Assembly (NCBI RefSeq): GCF_016097555.1
Contig: NC_054712.1
Location: 38,397,454 to 38,461,453, forward strand
From: Gigantopelta aegis
Lineage: Eukaryota; Mollusca; Gastropoda; Neomphalida; Peltospiridae
DNA length: 64,000 nt
Direction: 5' to 3'
A program made the position numbers and the translations under genes. Of the stretch, positions 15,151 to 58,015 are shown in pieces. The notes under the pieces are model-generated. The model saw only the letters and a program-made list of their open reading frames with translations. It made no database searches and had not been told where the DNA came from. Position 1 is the stretch's first letter. Every line of letters starts with the position of its first letter.

Positions 15151-15803
15151 TTCAGTCATACAGTGGAACTGCCGTGGGCTTAGGCCCAATTTTGATGAAT
15201 TAAGTCTTTTAATTCAAAAACATAATCCTCTTGCAGTGTGTCTTCAGAAAACGTTCTTGAAGGACACTGATCATATTACCATGAGAGGATTTAACCTTTT
15301 ATCATAAATGTCAAGAAACTGAAAATCGAGCATCTGTGGGTGTTTCCATTCTTGTTAATGTAAACATTCCTCAAAGTATAGTAACATTAACTACAAATTT
15401 ACAAGCTGTGGCTGTAAAAGTCACGGCTCATAAAACTATAACTCTATGTTCAGTTTATTTACCTCCTCGAAACCATTTTAATTTTAATTCTAGAGATCTT
15501 CAAGATCTCATTAACCAGCTCCCTATTCCCTTTATTATTATAGGAGATTTTAGTGGTCACCACACTTTGTGGGGATGTGAGGATGTAAATATTAGAGGTA
15601 AACAATTAGAAGAGTTCATTCTCAAAAATGACTTACTTTTATTCAATGATAAAAGTCATACATATTTTCATTCTGCAAGTAGTTCTTTTACTTCTATAGA
15701 TTTATCTCTTTGTTGTCCTTCAGTTTTTCTTGATTTCTCCTGGAAAGTTGGTTCAGACCCTTGTGGTAGTGACCACTTTCCCATTATTTTGGAGAATGAT
15801 TGA
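15143..15803 (+). pseudogene. I-group LINE ORF2: APE endonuclease part
   Basis: Opens VIQWNCRGLRPNFDELSLLI, the usual start of the AP-like endonuclease, and continues to IIIGDFSGHHTLWG and GSDPCGSDHFPIIL, which carry the GDFN-like and SDH motifs. A stop near 15307 and the stop at 15801 break it. The endonuclease nicks target DNA in the active element. Its motifs are otherwise well kept. Confidence 0.75.
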
Positions 15804-15920
15804 CCACCATCACTTGAAAGGGTTCAAAGGTGGAAGTTAGCGAAGGCAAATTGGGGTCAGTTTCAGCATCTGTGCAGCATTCGTCTGCAACAATTTGCCA
15901 TTACTGATGCTGATGATCCC

Positions 15921-17160
15921 ATGTCTTTATTCACTTCCATCTTGAAGGACATTGCAGTTGAAACTATTCCTAAGACTTCGGCAGTGCCAAAGCGTTTCAA
16001 TAAACCATGGTTTAATGATACGTGTGAAAATGCATTCAAAGAGCGAAACATGTTGCTTGAGCGGTTCAAACGTGAACCTACAGCAGACAACCTGGATGCA
16101 TTTCGTATTGCTAGGGCTAAGGCTCGCAGAGAGATTAGACAGAGTAAGAAATCATCTTGGAGAACGTTTGTCTCCAAGTTGAATTCACAACATCGGTGAA
16201 ATCTGTCTGGAATAGTATTCGTAAAATCAAAGGTAAAGACTCCAGTAATACAGTTCATCATTTGTCTGTCAATGATACGGATGTCACGTCTCATCGTGAC
16301 ATTGCCAGTGCATTGGCAGACAATTTTTTCTCATAATTCATCTTCTGCTTTCAGTACAGATGCTTTTACATCTGTCCGAACTAAAGCTGAAAAGCAGTCC
16401 ATTAATTTTTCATCCAAAAATGCTGTAGTATACAACAGGCATTTCTCTATGGAGGAATTGCAGGATGCTCTTCGTAGAGCCCATGATACTTCAGTAGGAC
16501 CGGGTGAAATTCATTATCAGTTATTAAAACATTTACCTGAATCATCTTTGATGATTCTTTTGAATATTTTTAATAACATCTGGATTTCTGGTGACTTTCC
16601 TTCTGATTGGAGGAAAGCAATTATTATTCCTATTCCCAAGCCTGGTAAGGATCCAACTAATCCTACTAGTTATCGCCCTATCGCTTTGACAAGTTGCATT
16701 TGTAAAACCATGGAACGAATGATCAAGCTTAGACTCGTCTGGTATCTTGAATCCAACAAATTCCTCACTAACGTACAATGTGGGTTCAGATCTAGACGTA
16801 GCGCGGTTGATCATCTTGATAGATTTGAAACGTTTTGTAGGGAAGCTTTCATCCATAATCAGCACTTGGTTTCAGTGTTTTTTGATTTGGAGAAAGCTTA
16901 CGATACCACGTGGAAGTATGGGATTTTAAACGACCTCCATGGCATGGGCCTTAGAGGTCGTCTTCCTGTTTTTATATCTCAATGTTTAAGACATAGATAT
17001 TTTAAAGTCCGGGTGGGGTCGACTTTGTCCGACATTCACCCACAGGAGATGTGGGTGTACCTCAAGGTAGTATCCTGTCTGTAACTCTATTTTCTGTGAA
17101 AATTAACAGCATCACCCAGTGTTTAACACCTGGTGTGGATTGCTAGTTATATGTTGATGA
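15921..17160 (+). pseudogene. I-group LINE ORF2: reverse transcriptase part
   Basis: Contains the RT blocks in order: SVGPGEIHYQLLKHLP, PIPKPGKDPTNPTSYRPIAL, FFDLEKAYDTTW, GVPQGSIL (in a shifted frame near 17060) and the YVDD box near 17150. The longest continuous piece is 16272-17084. Frame changes near 16200 and 17045 and a stop before YVDD interrupt it. In the active element this enzyme copies RNA at the nicked target. Confidence 0.8.
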
Positions 17161-44707: not shown

Positions 44708-47160
44708 TCCTTACTGTCTGCACGGATTCACCAAGGAGACCCTATTGACTGTCCATTTGTTCTATTGTCAAATCCATGGAACAAAAAAAGTGGAACTTCC
44801 CAAAGACGAGGACAAGCGGTTGTTTTACAAAGATATAAAGAAACAACTCAAAGTACCCTACATCCTTTACGCAGACTTTGAGTGTCTCCAAGTGCCCTTC
44901 TCGAAATGCTCAACAAATCCAGAATCTTCCTCGATGGAGAAGACCACAAAACACGTCCCTTGTGGATTTTCATATAAAGTTGTGGGTTTAACACCCGCAC
45001 ACCAAATAACAGGTGGTGTATAGAGGTACAGATGTAGCAGGAAGGTTTGTGAAATGCATGATTCAAGAGCCGGATGAGATAGAACAAAAATCCAAACATT
45101 GTGAGACGACGGCTATGACAGGAAGTGATTGGCAACCCTTAAAAAAGACAACTCACTGTCACATATGTAAAGAGACACTGGGCCCAAAGCCAGTCCGAGA
45201 CCACTGCCACGTCACTGGACAATTCCGAGGAGCTGCACACAATGAGTGCACCATCAATTACAAGTTTACTAGATGCATCCCAGTGGTGTTTCACAACTTG
45301 AGAGGCTACGACAGTCACGTGATCATGCAAGCCATTGGAAAAGCACAAACCACTGAAATGTATTCCAAACAACATGGGAAAGTACATCTCGTTTTCTCTT
45401 GGCTGCATGGATTTCATAGACTTGTTCCAGTTGTTGAACACGTCTTTGGCGAATCTCGTGGAACCCTCCAAATTCAAACATACAGTGATTACTTCAGAGA
45501 TGAGAAACGTCCTCTGTTGTTTCGAAAACAAGTCTACCCTTATGAATACTTTTATTTGGAAGAGTGATTTGTTGAGACTTGCCTCCCTCCAAAGGGACGG
45601 TTCTGCAGTTCGTTGACAGGAGAAGGTTTGGCAGATGAGGACTATATACATGCACAAACCGTTTTGAAGGAATTCAAGATCCAAAATCCAAAACGTCGAT
45701 GTCCTGGCATTAGCAGATGTGTTTGAAAATTCCCAAGACATATGTTTGAATTACTATGAGTTAGACCCGGATCACTTCTACACGTCACTTGGTCTGGCTT
45801 GGCAAGCAGCACTGACGATGACAGGAGTGCAACTTGAATTGATGACAGACATTGAGCAACATCTCTTTGTCTAAAAAGATTTCAGAGGTGGAATCCCCAT
45901 GATCACTCGCCGACCTGCCAGAGCCAACAATGCCGACATGCCAGATAATGACTCCAATCAAACCACTAGTCACGTGATGTACCTAGATGCGAACAATCTC
46001 TATGGTTGGGCCATGTTGCAATCTCTTCCAGTTCATGGACAGGCATAGAACAGTTGGATATCTCTCAAATACCAGATCATTCAGCCCAAGGGTTCATCTT
46101 GGAAGTAGATCTTGACTATCCCCAAGAGCTTCATGGTCTGCATAATGATTGTCCATTAGCTCCAGAGAAACTAACGATGACTGAAGAAATACCGTCATGC
46201 TATGCCAGACATCTATTAGAAGAACTGGACCTGAAAGGTACTGCCACCGAAACGTTGGTACCGAATTTGCCACCAAAACAAACGTATGGTCCACTATCGT
46301 AATTTGAAATTGTACCTCTCCTTGGGCATGAAGCTGACCAAGACCTACATCGAGTTCAACACAGATAACAGGAAGACGGCCAGAAATGATTTCGATTTTT
46401 GTTTTTTAAAACTCATGAACAATTCAGTGTTTGAGAAAACCAGGGAAAACCAGGGAAAACCTGAGGAAAAGAGTAGATGTGAAGCTCGTCAACAACAAAA
46501 AGAGTGCATGCATACTGGTGGCAAAACCCAACTTCCATAACTTCCGCATCTTCAACGACGACCTGGTGGCTGTCCACATGGAGATATTTCCTATCAGACC
46601 CATCTACGTTAGTATTAACATTCATGACATTTTGAAAATATTGATGTATGACTTTCATTACAAATACATCAAGGCAAAGTATGGATCTAAAGCCCAACTC
46701 CTGTTCACGGACACTGACTCACTGTCTACAGCATCCAAACAGGGGACATCTATGAAGACATGCTAGGTGACTATCATTTGTTTGACACTCCAGAGTACCC
46801 CACTGACCATGTCCTGTATAGTACCGAGAACAAGAAAGTACTGGGTAAAATGAAGGATGAGACATGGAATCCCCATCCAGGAGTTTGTGGGTTTAAAATC
46901 CAAAATGTATTCTCTCATTTACCAGGAGGTGGTAAGACGACCAAAGGGACCAAAAGAGCCAAACAAAGCAGGCATATTACAAACAGTGTCTCTTCGAAAG
47001 GAAAAACACATACACATGTCAAACATGCCTCAGATCAGAAGCTATGGCCACCAGTTGTACACCATACAACTCATCAAGCTGGGACTCTCCCCCTTCGATG
47101 ACAAGAGGTATCTCCTTGCAGGTGGGGTGATGAGCCTGGCCTATGGCCATTGACTACTTA
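44708..47160 (+). mobile_element. Polinton/Maverick DNA polymerase B fossil
   Basis: Protein-primed family B DNA polymerase parts are seen in order on the plus strand: the LYADFE exonuclease motif, the cysteine-histidine DHCHVTGQFRGAAHNEC insert typical of Polintons, VFHNLRGYDSH, the YLDANNLYGWAM palm motif, a NTDNRKTARNDF/MNNSVF region, and LLFTDTDS. The left side runs into the assembly gap. It is broken by roughly eight or more disruptions and no capsid genes or terminal repeats were seen. It is an old, partial copy; the family is clear, but the exact Polinton subgroup is not. Confidence 0.85.
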
Positions 47161-50035: not shown

Positions 50036-50439
50036 AAATAAATATATATGTTACAGTCAATCTATGAAACCAGTCATTACACGTAATGCCTAAACAAATC
50101 AGTCATTTAGCAAAGTGCCTGTGACCACCAGGCAATACGCGAAATGACTGAAAATTCCAGGCATTTCACGAAATGACTAAAGTGATTCAAGTCTTATTGT
50201 TGACACTTGTATACAGGCTTTTGGTCTTAAACATTGATAAAATCACATTTTAACAACAAACAAGGATAAGTATACTGATTATACGATTTAAAATACTACT
50301 TAATATTACTTACTTAAAATACAACTTAATATTCAACTTTTGCTATAGTTTCAGATTAAATAATCTTATAGAAAATATGCTTAATAGCACTTGAATATTA
50401 CTAACAAAATGTTCTGGTAATTAATGTTTCATTCGTCGA

Positions 50440-50758: not shown

Positions 50759-50762
50759 TATA

Positions 50763-51218
50763 GGTATCTCACCACTATTGATTATACATTGGTGACAGTA
50801 CAAATATAAAGCCAAGCACTGACTAAATTATTAACAGTAGGTGCTATATACTACCTGACATGAAGAGAACAGCCTCTGTGACAGGATTTAAGCAAATAAA
50901 ATTGATACTTCGCCACCTGCAATTTTAATTATCCACTCTCCTAAGCACATGGGCTAATGGAGGGGAGGCTACTCTCGTTAAATATATGTACCACAGGCAT
51001 AGCAAACAATGGTCTTGCTTGTAGCTAAGCAGATATGCATCTGTCAGTTTGATATGCAAAAATCAAGAGGCAATGTTACCCTTCCAATATTCCATAATCA
51101 TACTGTCAAGTCTGTTCAGACACCAACGTAATAAAATAAAGAAAAGAGGTACTCTTTTTCATGGAACTAAATTCGTCGCCTACACGTCGCTCATTGGCTG
51201 AAATAGCGGTGTGATCCC
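50763..51218 (+). repeat. Left terminal direct repeat, 456 bp
   Basis: Starts GGTATCTCACCACTATTG and ends AATAGCGGTGTGATCCC, so the repeat itself has inverted termini like a MITE. It matches 54572-55017 almost base for base, with extra sequence near TCGCCTACACGTCGC. Confidence 0.9.
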
Positions 51219-51882
51219 TTAAGAGGGGGTTTGGAATGGGATAGCTAGTCAGTTTTGACACATGACATACTATGACGCATACCTAGTAGGAAAACACCAA
51301 ATTTGGTCATGTCTTCTAATATGCATTAATGCAAGAGGCCATGAAGATTGGCCCGGGGGTTAGCAACACTGGGCTGAAATAATAGAAAATTAAGCTTCTC
51401 CACACCTCAAGTTCACCTGACCAAAGTTATAACATGGAGGTGACATTCCAAATGTTTGCTGTTGTATAATGGGGGGTACAAGACCATACTGGGTACTGGC
51501 ATATTTTAATATGTCATATGCATGAACTTTTATTAAAAATTTAATTTAAATATTGGATTTGGCAAATTCAAGTGAGCCACAAAAAGGTTATTTTGGGACA
51601 GTATGAGAGGGAAGTATGCACACTGGCAGCTGTCAACGGGACACATGGGCAATTTCAAACTGGGAGTGAACTGAAGCCTAAAGTATCTGATGGCTGAGAG
51701 AACTGATCACAATCATAAACAAATTCAAAACAGAACACGCATCAGTTTACTGCATGAGAGTATTTATTAACATAACACACACCACAGGTTCCATTCCACT
51801 GAAGACTGCTACATGCTAAGAGATACAAAAGTTCACAGTTTTCCGTATACTAAGAGAATATACTACACCCAGTGTGCTAACA

Positions 51883-53895
51883 ATGAAGCCAAAGAAAAAT
51901 CCAACAGAAAACCTGCACAACAAGGGTGCCTTTCAAAAGGGACACCAATGTCTGTTCAAAAGAACTATAGGTGTTACTAAAACAAAGTGTCTTAAGCCTG
52001 AAGGTGACAACATACCAGTTACCATGAGACTTAGTCAAGAAGAATTCAACGCTGTGGTACACCACTGTGATAGACAGTCATACATCGTCAAGGATGCGGA
52101 TGGAATTCCCAGTGACATTAGACTTCTCCGACCAACACGGATCTCAACTGGAGGTGGTACACAGGCAGGCGAGTTCCTGAAAGCAAAAATGGACATGAAT
52201 GATTCCAAAAGTATACACTGTGGTATGCTTCTAAAGATGTTTAATGACAGTAATGAAGACCACAGACTAGCTTCTCCAGGGTGCACTGGCAAGTACACAT
52301 GGAATTTAGACTTGTGTCAGAAATGGGGCCTGTGCACCCGTGCAGGACTGAGATGTCAAAAGTGTTCATTCACAAGTAAAAAATACAAACTGTATGAAGA
52401 GACAACACAGAATACTAGGAGGGGGCCAAAATCAGCAAAGCCAAATGTCGGTGTACACGTAGGACTACAGAGCACATCTGTCGGTGTTACCGGTTTCCGG
52501 GGAATAATGCTGTGTGCTGGAGTCACACCCCCAGCTACCAGCGGAATGCAGAATACTGCCAACGAAGTGGGACGAGTGACAACCAGTCTCAATAAACTTG
52601 ACATGTCCACACGCAGAGCAGACTTAGTACAACTGAACATTAATAGGGGATTTTCAGCTGACCATCCCATTGCCATAGGAGACTGCCGGTACAACAATCC
52701 TCTTTCAAGTGGGTGCGGTTCAACACCATTTCAACCGGCTACACAAGCAACTTACACTATGGTGGAAAATGAGACTGGCAAGAAACAAATAATAGGACTT
52801 TACACAGGAAATAAACTCTGCAAGGCTCGTGAGCTTCAAGCAGCGAGAGAAAATAGACTAATACTCTGCCCCGATCATACAGGTACCTGTACAGCAAATC
52901 TCCGGCTTGACGACACAATAGGAGACGAAGAAGATTCTGCAGCTCAGTGTTCAAGTGACTTCTCATCAGACGTCTCTCCACTCACGATTGGATTCTTCAC
53001 GACTGATGGCGATTCCCATGCCGTGTCCGGATTACAGTCATCCCAGAGCAAAATATCTAAAGTGAAGATAAAAAATCTGAGAGACACCCGTCATTTATCC
53101 GAATCACAAAGGAAGTTTACAGAAAGGGTCAAGTTCAGTGACAACATGTTCCCTGGAAAAACAAAAGCTGAACGAGAAAAGGTTAAAAAAAGATTTGCTA
53201 TCGACTTGAGACGGCGCTGCCACAGTGAATATACATCGGCACACAACCAACTTGCCGGCAACATGAACAAGTTAGTAAGCAAACTGTCTTACACTGCTAC
53301 GAGTATACTATATTGTGTGACTGAGAAATGTGGAGCAACATGCAGAAAACATTCCTTTGTGTGCTCAGGGGTGAAAAAGGGACGATCAAACATGACATTC
53401 ATGCCTACCGGTACAAAGTTAAATGTCACGGTAGAGGACGAGGCACTGATTAAACAATGCATAGACATAAGACTGGGTGTAAAAGCCATTGAGAAGACTA
53501 AACTGAACACAAATACTCAAAAGTGTGAGAGCGTCAACAGAGCATACAGCAGAACAAATCCAAAAACTGTTACATACCATAGAAATTTCACCAGCCGCAT
53601 ACACAGTGCCGTGCATATGCTGAACAGTGGGTTTTCAAGTTCGGTCATTCAAAGATGTACAGCTGTGGGAGCTGGGGTACGTGACAAAACATCGGTCATA
53701 TGCCACTTGAAGAGCATCGAGCGGATAGCCAGGAGACATGCGAGTCGTCAACGAACACAACAATTCCAAGCCAGGAGGGCATCTCTAAGAAGAAAAAGAT
53801 ACAATATGTATGATAGACTTCATCGGACAATAACATATTCAAAAAACTTACTCGACCCCGAACTGAACTATAACTCTGTCGGCAAAAAACTGTGA
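51883..53895 (+). CDS. Mutator-like transposase, intact frame
   Basis: 670 codons from ATG 51883; the frame is open from a GTG at 51874, but the ATG is preferred. The N-terminal region carries cysteine pairs (GCTGKYTWNLDLC, RCQKCSFTSKKYKLY, about residues 134-171). Then come NVGVHVGLQSTSVG, GMQNTANEVG and HPIAIGDCRYNN (Asp 267), FFTTDGDSHAVSG (Asp 375/377), a CRKHSFVCSG block and TQKCESVNRAYSRTNPKTV (Glu 549), then RNFTSRIHSAVHMLNSG. This order matches, from memory, the Mutator-like transposase domain found in many marine invertebrate proteins; D-D-E assignments are inferred. The C-terminus is strongly basic (RRASLRRKR). No frameshift or stop is seen, so the enzyme may still be functional. 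It lies between two direct repeats inside a Ginger element. Confidence 0.75.
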   Translation: MKPKKNPTENLHNKGAFQKGHQCLFKRTIGVTKTKCLKPEGDNIPVTMRLSQEEFNAVVHHCDRQSYIVKDADGIPSDIRLLRPTRISTGGGTQAGEFLKAKMDMNDSKSIHCGMLLKMFNDSNEDHRLASPGCTGKYTWNLDLCQKWGLCTRAGLRCQKCSFTSKKYKLYEETTQNTRRGPKSAKPNVGVHVGLQSTSVGVTGFRGIMLCAGVTPPATSGMQNTANEVGRVTTSLNKLDMSTRRADLVQLNINRGFSADHPIAIGDCRYNNPLSSGCGSTPFQPATQATYTMVENETGKKQIIGLYTGNKLCKARELQAARENRLILCPDHTGTCTANLRLDDTIGDEEDSAAQCSSDFSSDVSPLTIGFFTTDGDSHAVSGLQSSQSKISKVKIKNLRDTRHLSESQRKFTERVKFSDNMFPGKTKAEREKVKKRFAIDLRRRCHSEYTSAHNQLAGNMNKLVSKLSYTATSILYCVTEKCGATCRKHSFVCSGVKKGRSNMTFMPTGTKLNVTVEDEALIKQCIDIRLGVKAIEKTKLNTNTQKCESVNRAYSRTNPKTVTYHRNFTSRIHSAVHMLNSGFSSSVIQRCTAVGAGVRDKTSVICHLKSIERIARRHASRQRTQQFQARRASLRRKRYNMYDRLHRTITYSKNLLDPELNYNSVGKKL

Positions 53896-53913
53896 ACACT
53901 CGGTAAATTCTTT

Positions 53914-53921
<8 letters not shown>

Positions 53922-53988
<67 letters not shown>
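53922..53988. repeat. (TA)n microsatellite, then (TATG)n
   Basis: About 33 TA units and a short TATG run just after the transposase stop. Confidence 0.95.
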
Positions 53989-53991
<3 letters not shown>

Positions 53992-54571
53992 ATAATTTTG
54001 TATGTATGTATGTATGTATGTATGTATTTATTTATTTACCTTAACTATTATAAAATGCAATCTGGATATATACCATGGCCTGAACATTTCTTTGGAACCA
54101 TATTTCTACAGTGCTGCCTTTGATTATTGATTACATGTGGCTCTAGACTTAAGTGGTGTATACTGACACACAAACTATGGAGACATAAGTGAGAAACATG
54201 AAAAGATTTTGGTAAAGTGACTGATTTGATATGAATCATGTATCGAAACCTGTGAACATTAATTGGCTTGTGTTTATCCTGACCTGGTATATCCATTCCA
54301 TAATACACAATTATTTACATTACTCTGTCTTGTGTTTCTATTAATTTTATGCAAAGTGGTGGCTACCCACAGTGCATTCATGCTATATTTCCTTAATTAT
54401 TATGCTAATTAGTGCTGATTAAAATATCCACCACACTTCAAAAAACAAAAATGTGTAGCCTAGTGTGTGCCGATGCTCTGAGAACACGAAAGCACATGGC
54501 TGGTGAAGTTTGCACCAATTACAACATGGTCACGGCCGGGCCGGTGCTATGCACTGGTAAAATAGTGTTTA

Positions 54572-55017
54572 GGTATCTCACCACTATTGATTATACATTG
54601 GTGACAGTACAAATATAAAGCCAAGCACTGACTAAATTATTAACAGTAGGTGCTATATACTACCTGACATGAAGAGAACAGCCTCTGTGACAGGATTTAA
54701 GCAAATAAAATTGATACTTCGCCACCTGCAATTTTAATTATCCACTCTCCTAAGCACATGGGCTAATGGAGGGGAGGCTACTCTCGTTAAATATATGTAC
54801 CACAGGCATAGCAAACAATGGTCTTGCTTGTAGCTAAGCAGATATGCATCTGTCAGTTTGATATGCCAAAATCAAGAGGCAATGTTACCCTTCCAATATT
54901 CCATAATCATACTGTCAAGTCTGTTCAGACACCATCGTAATAAAATAAAGAAAAGAGGTACTCTTTTTCATGGAACTAAATTCGTTTGCTCATTGGCTGA
55001 AATAGCGGTGTGATCCC
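54572..55017 (+). repeat. Right terminal direct repeat, 446 bp
   Basis: Same orientation as 50763-51218 and nearly identical; its outer end is the right end of the transposon. Confidence 0.9.
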
Positions 55018-55020
55018 TAT

Positions 55021-55660
55021 ATCTGCCGTATCCAATTTACCAACCGTCCTAGAACATACCACTGCACCTCATGCTGCTGATATACACGAATCAGTACCAA
55101 GCACCTGTCAGGAACCAATACCAAGCAGCAGTCATGAAGTCATGCCAAAACCTAGTCGGGAACCAGAGAGTGGGACAGGAACCTGATCCTGATATGCCAG
55201 TGCTCTCAGCTACGATTGGTTTAGTTTCAGATTCAACACCAGAATATGGCGGTCCACCTCTGATAAGTCCTGCTCCAGTTGCTGTCCCGGCTGATTTACT
55301 CCAGGCTCACATACACAATATCTTAAATGAGAGAAATGGTGCGAATTCCTCCCAGATGAGCGTATGGTCAAAAGGAGTAGACTGGAGCTAATAAGTGGAC
55401 AAGTGGGAGACAACGTAGCTCTTGTGGATAGGGGACGCAGTGACCGGCGAAATATTCTCGAAATAATCATAGACCGTGATGAGAACGTGATAAAAGGTAA
55501 GTTTACACGCAATCAGTTTGATTTGTGCCCCCAGCGTTTACTTACTGATGCCGATGAAAACCGTACAAAGTCAGTGACCTTACGCCAAGCTGTTAATCAC
55601 GAATCCAACTGTGGTGGACAGGGATATGTTAGGTGTAACTGTGCTGGTCTTAAGAGATGA
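55021..55660 (+). pseudogene. Ginger-associated C-terminal region
   Basis: Past the nested element, the plus strand encodes RSRLELISGQVGDNVALVD, NVIKGKFTRNQFDLCPQRLL and HESNCGGQGYVRCNCAG. This is the C-terminal module of KRBA2/SCAND3-like integrase proteins, with the start of their cysteine-rich tail. The region is incomplete and broken. Confidence 0.7.
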
Positions 55661-56040
55661 GAGTCCAATCGATGCAAACGTTTCAAAGCCGTTGTCATGG
55701 AAGCCTTGTGTGCAAAAACAAGTGACCTTTCTATACCAATATGTTACTTTCACGATTTGACACCGACTACTTGGTAACATTCAACTTAATCTTCATGTAC
55801 AACTTCTGAAATGATTTGATTTGAGTTTAAATAAAGCGTTACATTAGGACTTGAGTGGTGTGATATTACAGATAGCACTTTAGTCATTTTGCGTAACGGC
55901 TGGCCATGATTTTCAGTCATTTCGTGAAATGCCTGGAATTTTGAGTCATTTCGTGTATTGCCTGGTGGTCACAGGCACTTCGCGAAATGACCGATTTGTT
56001 TAGGCATTACACGTAATGACTGGTTTCACAGATTGCCTGT

Positions 56041-56043
<3 letters not shown>

Positions 56044-56092
<49 letters not shown>

Positions 56093-56480: not shown

Positions 56481-57079
56481 CAAAACATTTATGTACGAAT
56501 TTTTCATCGACCATTTCACGTCAGTCGCAAAGTAAGTTATTATAAATTCGGAAGTGGAACGAATATATCCTAGATCATGTTATTTATTTAGCACCAATCA
56601 GTAATTATCTTTCTAGTACAGACAATTGTACTACGATAATAGTTAGCTGAATGAATCTTGCATGTAACACCAATCAATTGGTGAGCCTAGGCAGGCCTCG
56701 CCGTATTACTTTAATCATTTTAATCGCTACTCTTCGCATGAGCGTCTGCATATTTTGTTTTTAACTTGAAATACAGGAGAGATCAATGTAATGCAGTGAT
56801 TGCAACAATAGCAGGTAAAGGGCCCCCGCCTGTGCTTCGTGCACTTTTCTCAACGTTGTCGCAAAAGATTCTACAACAGCATAATAAAGAACGATTTTTT
56901 AAATTAATAAATATTTATAAATACAAACTACCAGTGTGTTTGTTGTTTGTTTATTTAATGGTGATAAATAATAGTTACAAATATGTATTTGACGTCGACT
57001 TCCTTACTCATGAATCAATCGGACCATCTCGCCCAAGCCAGTTTTACGGAAATATGCGAGGTGTTCCGACATCGTCAGT

Positions 57080-58015
57080 GCACAGTCTCGTCAGAAGGAG
57101 AATTATGACCGTCACCATGAAAGCAACAAAGAGATTATCACAGGGTCTATAGTCTACATACAAAACAGTCGACATATACACAGGATGGGATCCAAGCTGG
57201 AACCGCGCTGGCCTGGTGCATATACTGTTGTTGAGTGCCCCAGCAAAGGCCGTGTCAAGCTAAAAAATGTAAAATCCACCTTCCACGCCAGCAACCTCAA
57301 GATCTACACAGATGCCACATCAACATCAGGTGTTCCCCATGTCCGTGTGCACTCAACCATTCCTGACCGCCCCTGTGACACCACAGAGGACACGCCCCAG
57401 CAACACAAGAGACCAACGAGGGAGCTAGACGAGACCAGTGACACAACAGAATGCGTCAGCAAAAAACCCAAGTCGATCAGTATGTTCAGCCCACTCTCCA
57501 GCAATGCCCGGAAGAACCTCGTAGCAGCGCTGGGTCTGACAACAACAAAATCAATATACTTTGGAAAACCCGCTGAACTATCACAGCCAAAACGAACGTA
57601 CAAGACCAAACGCGATGGCAACTGCTACTTCGGATCCATCAGTTATATACTCACAGGATCAGTGGAGAGCCATGGCATCATCTGAGATCGAGTCGAGCAG
57701 CACATGAACACTGACATCACCACGAAGCTCCAACACTACCTGAACCAAAATGTTAATGACTATGTGACTGACTCTGGAATCTCATTGGATGGAATATGGA
57801 CGAGGTCAGCCAGTCTGATGGGATATGGCGTTGCAGTATATACCAAGTTTGGCCATTCAATGCAGTGGCTAACGTATCCTGCCAGCTTTAGTCTCCAGAG
57901 CTTGACAGATCATCTTGAGAATGTTTCGGAGCATTTCAATGTTGTAGTCAGTTTTTTACATACGTTTTGTTTACTCATGTTTCACTGTAGTCTGCACTTT
58001 ATTAGTTTCCAATGA
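57080..58015 (+). pseudogene. Integrase C-terminal module joined to an OTU-type protease, Ginger-like
   Basis: The plus strand encodes KLEPRWPGAYTVVECPSKG and HASNLKIYTD, the SH3-like C-terminal module of Ginger/Gypsy-type integrases. After a basic linker comes TKRDGNCYFGSISYILTG, the DGNC block with the active-site cysteine of OTU deubiquitinases. Further OTU sequence (LMGYGVAVYTKFGHSMQWLT, VSEHFNVVVSF) follows after a stop at 57683-57685 and in a slightly different register. Some Ginger elements are known to carry OTU proteases. No inverted ends were found, so this is a partial, inactive copy. Confidence 0.65.

Follow-up and report, generated by a model that had tools for sequence, protein, structure and literature searches.

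The stretch of DNA analysed here (the window, 64,000 nucleotides of the forward strand of Gigantopelta aegis contig NC_054712.1, positions 38,397,454 to 38,461,453) harbours a transposable element of 4,255 bp at window positions 50763-55017. The element is composed of two long terminal direct repeats (LTDRs) of the form GG...CCC, both on the plus strand, i.e. a 456-bp 5' LTDR (50763-51218) and a 446-bp 3' LTDR (54572-55017), and of an internal region (INT; 51219-54571, plus strand), whose first bases are TTAAGA and whose last bases are GTTTA. It is flanked on both sides by the target-site duplication TATA (50759-50762 and 55018-55021). The inverted ends of the LTDR are imperfect and agree at 14 of 17 bases in the left repeat, in which they were measured. 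The two LTDRs differ by three aligned substitutions (0.67%) and by a 10-bp deletion in the right one, located inside a 26-bp block which is a candidate nuclease cut site (51172-51197 in the 5' LTDR; 54981-54996, shortened by the deletion, in the 3' LTDR; both plus strand). Comparison with other copies in the genome showed that variants private to an element are shared between its two LTDRs, as in long terminal repeats (LTRs).

Three features were recognized within INT: an intact gene for a DDD/E transposase (51874-53895, plus strand; 673 amino acids from GTG, 670 from ATG), a (TA)n simple repeat with the approximate limits 53919-53988, and a gene on the minus strand (54051-54378) encoding a His-Me finger homing endonuclease of the I-PpoI type, which is split into two frames here and open elsewhere. 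An earlier annotation, made without database searches (the sequence-only reading), had described long direct repeats, an intact transposase frame, inverted termini and a TATA duplication at 50763-55017, all of which were borne out, and had not mentioned the nuclease gene.

The transposase matched PF20700 (Mutator-like transposase) with an E value of 3.7e-43, as the sole Pfam match of this protein, when the hidden Markov model search proposed in the sequence-only reading was run. The name Mutator-like, which that reading had adopted, is nevertheless a Pfam label only, since target duplications of 3-4 bp together with the transposase motifs indicate Kolobok and not MuDR. In an alignment of three families, namely that of the window element (family A), a sister family B with transposases 47-49% identical to those of family A, and a third family with 36% identity, these motifs are D270, D378, DTRH (404-407), E552 and C490/H493/C497; C316, C332 and C339 are also invariant in the three families, and the histidine of this CCHC motif is absent in the third. 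D270, D378 and E552 are the putative catalytic residues of the DDD/E triad. A search of PDB sequences with the transposase returned one match, at E 1, and no relative was found in a scan of viral contigs.

Target duplications of MuDR and other Mutator-like elements (MULEs) are 8-11 bp long. This difference, the combination of an I-PpoI-type nuclease with LTDRs, as in KolobokP, and the equal Pfam match and equal architecture of family B make it highly improbable that we are dealing with a MuDR/MULE transposon which has acquired direct repeats, even though PF20700 is the only Pfam family that the transposase matches.

The product of the minus-strand gene matched PF05551, both in an open sister copy (E 2.3e-9) and in the window remnant (E 6.7e-8). 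The frame is broken in the window copy, but the 125-residue query is contained in one open frame at 10 of the 18 loci scanned. A profile built of four nuclease sequences retrieved I-PpoI structures (E 0.001); a PDB search with a single nuclease sequence gave no match. The spacing of S84, H85, H97, E101 and N106 of the nuclease equals that of the I-PpoI residues S97, H98, H110, E114 and N119, as printed in PMC9587614.

All these features point to KolobokP, described by Kojima and Bao (2022, Mobile DNA 13:24; PMC9587614). According to that description, KolobokP elements have paired LTDRs of ~450 or ~660 bp (here 456/446 bp), each with its own inverted ends of 11-18 bp of the form 5'-RR...YY-3' (here GG...CC), generate 3-5-bp duplications with no strong target preference (here 3-4 bp, comprising many different words), and encode a DDD/E transposase with DxxH and two zinc-finger motifs, all present here, as well as a downstream His-Me finger nuclease on the opposite strand (here PF05551). 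Solo LTDRs and multimers are further features of KolobokP, the latter found here only in family B. The element differs in that no family A multimer of the (LTDR-INT)n-LTDR type was found among the copies seen, and in the broken nuclease gene of the window copy. Comparing it with published KolobokP by description, we are confident that it is a DNA transposon of the KolobokP type.

The sequence-only reading had offered two views of the architecture. The first, a composite-transposon-like arrangement, agrees with the published description of KolobokP, while the second, a new transposon architecture, has to be abandoned, as this architecture has been known since 2022 (PMC9587614). As in bacterial composite transposons (IS26 etc.), two mobile end units surround an internal region, with the difference that the transposase is encoded in the internal region and not in the end units (PMC9587614). 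Seven G. aegis families, KolobokP-1 to -7_GiAe, are given in Table 2 of PMC9587614, four of which comprise monomers and solos without multimers. Family A resembles these four and may be one of the seven, a comparison made by description only.

The genome searched comprised 1,149,253,464 bases. The transposase search yielded 73 match rows, five of which cover residues 1-673 without a stop. Among 308 candidates for the 456-bp unit, 40 were scored; they showed 98-100% identity and, as judged by position and a search for neighbouring INT sequence, 26 lie in transposase-bearing copies, three (L020, L073, L074) adjoin INT sequence and 11 are solo. Thus both other copies and solo units, for which the sequence-only reading had suggested such a search, exist. 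The recurrence of the unit and of the frame shows that the structure did not arise by accident. Copies with only one terminal unit had been named there as grounds for refutation; they do occur (the 11 solos), but do not refute the interpretation, as solo LTDRs are a normal feature of KolobokP.

Duplications of at least 3 bp (3-4 bp) were found at 23 of 29 sites, i.e. those of 16 paired elements and of 13 copies filed as solos, L073 and L074 included (mean of 3.8 and maximum of 11 in 10,000 shufflings). When L074, which adjoins INT and hence is not a solo, and three elements with damaged outer ends (e22, e23 and e40) were removed, 22 of the 25 sites had a duplication (shuffled mean 3.5, maximum 9); the 25 sites consist of 13 full elements (12 with a duplication), 11 true solos (10 with a duplication) and L073. 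The L074 locus (C8:52747961-52754578), where a 3' LTDR stands beside only 52 bp of recognizable INT end and a nuclease fragment and an LTDR match are found 5-6.5 kb away, appears to be a decayed or rearranged element.

The right flank of the window element has 40 other matches in the genome, nine of which were fetched (L052-L060). All nine are paralogous empty sites with a single TATA, neither LTDR and no INT. It follows that the LTDR-INT-LTDR unit was inserted at this locus in one piece, with the formation of a 4-bp duplication. The existence of solo 456-bp units, 10 of 11 with their own duplication, might suggest two separate insertions of 456-bp miniature inverted-repeat transposable elements (MITEs) around an unrelated transposase. 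However, the alignment with empty sites, proposed in the sequence-only reading, excludes two independent insertions here. Moreover, the LTDR-INT-LTDR order is repeated in 16 paired copies, with outer duplications in 12 of the 13 whose outer ends are intact. The probability of such an origin is therefore negligible.

The relationship between the two ends was analysed in an alignment of 48 LTDRs, which included 16 elements with both ends; L017, L020, L030, L036, L037, L038, L046, L049 and L073-L076, for which one LTDR or none was available, are absent from the pairing test. Three of the aligned LTDRs (e23_5, e31_3, e40_3) are partial and two (e22_3, e23_3) are devoid of their last bases. In the 16 pairs, 19 non-consensus variants were common to both ends, while the permuted mean was 2.6 and none of 100,000 permutations reached the observed value. 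When three common variants were left out, 13 sharings remained in the 16 pairs against a mean of 0.94 expected, again with 0/100,000 permutations. These rare sharings come from e29 (four), e32 (three), e27 (two, also found once elsewhere) and e21, e24, e25 and e33 (one each); the other nine pairs had no rare variant available to share. Site 131 is C/C in five and T/T in ten of the 15 informative pairs, none being mixed, and was not covered by one partial end. This pairing demonstrates concerted evolution of the two ends.

In family B, sharing within loci was likewise more frequent than in permutations (15 versus a mean of 2.1; 0/20,000), with the caveat that 12 of the 15 sharings come from one array on C11 and the other three from two monomers. 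One variant common to the five LTDRs of the C11 array was found in none of the 19 other family B LTDRs.

Static cut-and-paste of a composite predicts separate lineages of 5' and 3' LTDRs. Such lineages were not seen, and the alignment contained no column in which the majority base differs between 5' and 3' LTDRs. In their long direct terminal repeats with element-private shared variants, and in the occurrence of solo repeats, the elements resemble LTR retrotransposons. They are unlike them in having GG...CC inverted ends, a DDD/E transposase and a homing-type nuclease, and no reverse transcriptase was found in INT, where no open reading frame exceeds 113 amino acids except the transposase, the nuclease being assigned to PF05551.

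These results bear on the age of the element. The sequence-only reading had concluded from the near identity of the repeats that the element moved recently, which is unsafe, because the two repeats share variants as if homogenised, and the identity of homogenised LTDRs may underestimate the age of an element. The transposase of the window copy, with 10 singletons in 2,022 bp, is a better guide to its age than the repeats are. More generally, the pairing means that the divergence between the two repeats is not a safe measure of age in such elements.

The sharing may arise by two routes, conversion after insertion and inheritance from the source element, and both may act. Transposase variants shared by elements (11 synonymous, 4 nonsynonymous) look conserved. 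In contrast, singletons private to one element comprise 33 synonymous and 91 nonsynonymous changes, the neutral synonymous share being 0.25; private changes thus look neutral and are mostly later than insertion, which suggests that part of the sharing arises after insertion as well. Element e32 is a case in point: it has 1 synonymous and 17 nonsynonymous private changes, and its three e32-only substitutions in the 5' LTDR are all present in the 3' LTDR, where the only further changes are one substitution, a deletion of 2 bp and, within a run of T, an insertion of 1 bp. This points to conversion in place, unless the source was already dead.

On the other hand, the pairs may be alike only since their source carried both variants, owing to regeneration at transposition or to old subfamilies, with no conversion after insertion. 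The concordance of site 131 in 15/15 informative pairs across independent insertions is in line with this explanation, and the raised synonymous share (16/36) of the singletons of e21, e24, e25 and e29 allows inheritance from the source. However, had half of the private changes been older than the insertion, their synonymous share should be ~0.49, from which the overall neutral-looking ratio departs (p 5e-7), and e32 does not fit easily, although a source with a dead transposase could still explain it. We therefore give inheritance alone a real chance, but one appreciably short of even.

A possible cut site of the nuclease is the 26-bp block. No BLAST match between the LTDRs of families A and B passed the filters used (a length of 60 bp or more at E 1e-5; more than 100 bp at E 1e-10), but a single block, which in both families begins at a distance of 47 bp from the 3' end, is identical at 22 of its 26 bases. 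In gapped local alignment of the two LTDRs, the top-scoring result ends in this block and extends back over ~140 columns, and its score of 26 exceeds those of 500/500 shuffles (maximum 24). The block has CGT...ACG arms; no obvious counterpart was seen by eye in the third family. A degenerate pattern of the block occurs at 127 places in the genome (100 of them listed), and the reversed pattern at none.

Within family A, the block of the 3' LTDRs has undergone three deletions and a 7-bp duplication, i.e. 4/15 altered 3' LTDRs (e40, whose 3' LTDR stops short of the block, being omitted) versus 0/16 5' LTDRs (p 0.043). The unpaired 3' LTDR of L074 has a 1-bp insertion in the block, and one 3' LTDR of family B has a deletion there. 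A genome-wide scan across the block returned 51 places, 46 of intact length (for three of which the length alone is shown) and five with net deletions of 10-18 bp. A first control window of equal design gave 87 places, none with a deletion (as judged by coordinates, four are longer, three by 3 bp and one by 1 bp), and a second gave 43 places with no length change.

The block is a natural candidate for a nuclease site, as it is found at the same place in two families, has CGT...ACG arms and is prone to deletions such as end joining of a break would leave. According to a proposal by Kojima and Bao, the nuclease cuts within the LTDR or at the LTDR ends, at a site that they did not name, and PMC9587614 leaves open by what means the pairing of KolobokP ends is maintained and what role the homing endonuclease plays; the text of that paper, as far as it was available to us, contains no LTDR pairing test and names no nuclease site. 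We tentatively suggest, while regarding it as rather unlikely, that the 26-bp block is a self-targeted cut site of the element's own I-PpoI-type nuclease, and that repair from the partner LTDR keeps the ends LTR-like.

It is at least as likely, and in our estimate about an even chance, that the block serves transposase binding or regulation, and that its deletions are due to replication slippage. The transposases of families A and B are related (47-49%), the similarity of their LTDRs extends past the block, and the block contains short direct repeats (CGTCGC twice). Of the five deletions, one is exactly a slippage of such a 6-bp repeat. Against this explanation, two of the five are simple with 1-bp microhomology and two carry an added base change; four of the five keep the left edge TTCGT, and no deletion was found at the 130 control places. 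Another candidate nuclease site, the LTDR/INT junction, was rejected: it resembles the site of I-PpoI, but Kolobok insertion would by itself account for the TTAA and GG at this place, where the third family has TATA instead.

The following scheme may be proposed. The transposase probably acts on the inverted ends of the LTDRs and mobilises either the whole unit or a single LTDR, and recombination or gene conversion between LTDRs probably produces the shared variants, at least partly after insertion. If the block is indeed cut by the nuclease, exchange would be helped by nuclease breaks in the block near the 3' end of the LTDR, above all in the 3' LTDR. Such breaks would be repaired from the partner LTDR, faulty end joining would leave the recurrent block deletions, and unequal repair would give rise to arrays, as in family B. 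If this is true, a DNA transposon keeps LTR-like matching ends by self-targeted homing and not by reverse transcription. The block offers a concrete candidate target sequence for the nuclease.

Several observations weigh against this scheme. The excess of deletions in the block (5/51 versus 0/130; p 0.0015) concerns a hot spot chosen post hoc, as three of the five cases prompted the test, and the two new cases taken by themselves give p 0.07. With insertions included, the block (5/51) does not differ from the first control (4/87; p 0.29), and one of the five deletions is, as mentioned, a repeat slippage. A 5' LTDR of family B, C9n_5, is also rearranged at the block. No array was seen in family A, although it encodes the nuclease. 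By raw distance, the 3' LTDR of another element is often no farther from a given 5' LTDR than the true partner is, or is even closer, although raw distance hides the pairing because private mutations dominate it. Finally, private substitutions in family A are more numerous in 3' LTDRs (31 versus 13; p 0.0096), as are private events (43 versus 15, or 39 versus 15 with each of three split deletions counted once; p 0.0015), with more private changes in the 3' LTDR of 10 elements, in the 5' LTDR of one and equal numbers in five; however, this excess was not clearly repeated in family B and was rejected as a general rule. The pairing and the block are the parts of this system worth following.

Arrays were encountered in several places. 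One trimer, bounded on either side by TTAT, was found in family B. In the C11 array of this family (L078, 2883-3340 and 5716-6175), the sequence flanking the last LTDR on the right appears a second time 2.8 kb farther along, behind another LTDR, possibly as a result of a later local duplication or of an assembly fault. A genome search for the nuclease, in which 150 of 379 candidates were scored, revealed nuclease genes spaced at 2.3 kb in arrays (C4414, C3302, C523 and C1:35.55 Mb). An intact 2-kb transposase gene would not fit into this distance together with an LTDR of ~450 bp, and, to judge by the spacing, these are probably arrays of nuclease-bearing non-autonomous KolobokP units. If so, arrays could grow from units that contain a nuclease and an LTDR but no transposase gene. 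Genes of a further nuclease family, ~40% identical, recur on small contigs (C402, C466, C4093, C4773 and C4883) at intervals of ~4.5 kb or a multiple thereof, probably in arrays of full-length units.

The window element is inserted inside another repeated element with 144-bp inverted ends (50038-50181 and 55912-56055; 92% identity) built of sub-repeats of ~29 bp. On the left side of this host repeat an integrase-like peptide was noticed by eye; it has no Pfam match. Elsewhere in the window, two frames gave weak matches under the curated cut-offs, one (45010-45564) to recombination endonuclease VII (PF02945, E 0.00065) and one (57014-57682) to an integrase C-terminal domain (PF18697, E 0.0039), and the remains of a non-LTR retrotransposon, with matches to Exo_endo_phos_2 and RVT_1, are located at 15285-17081.

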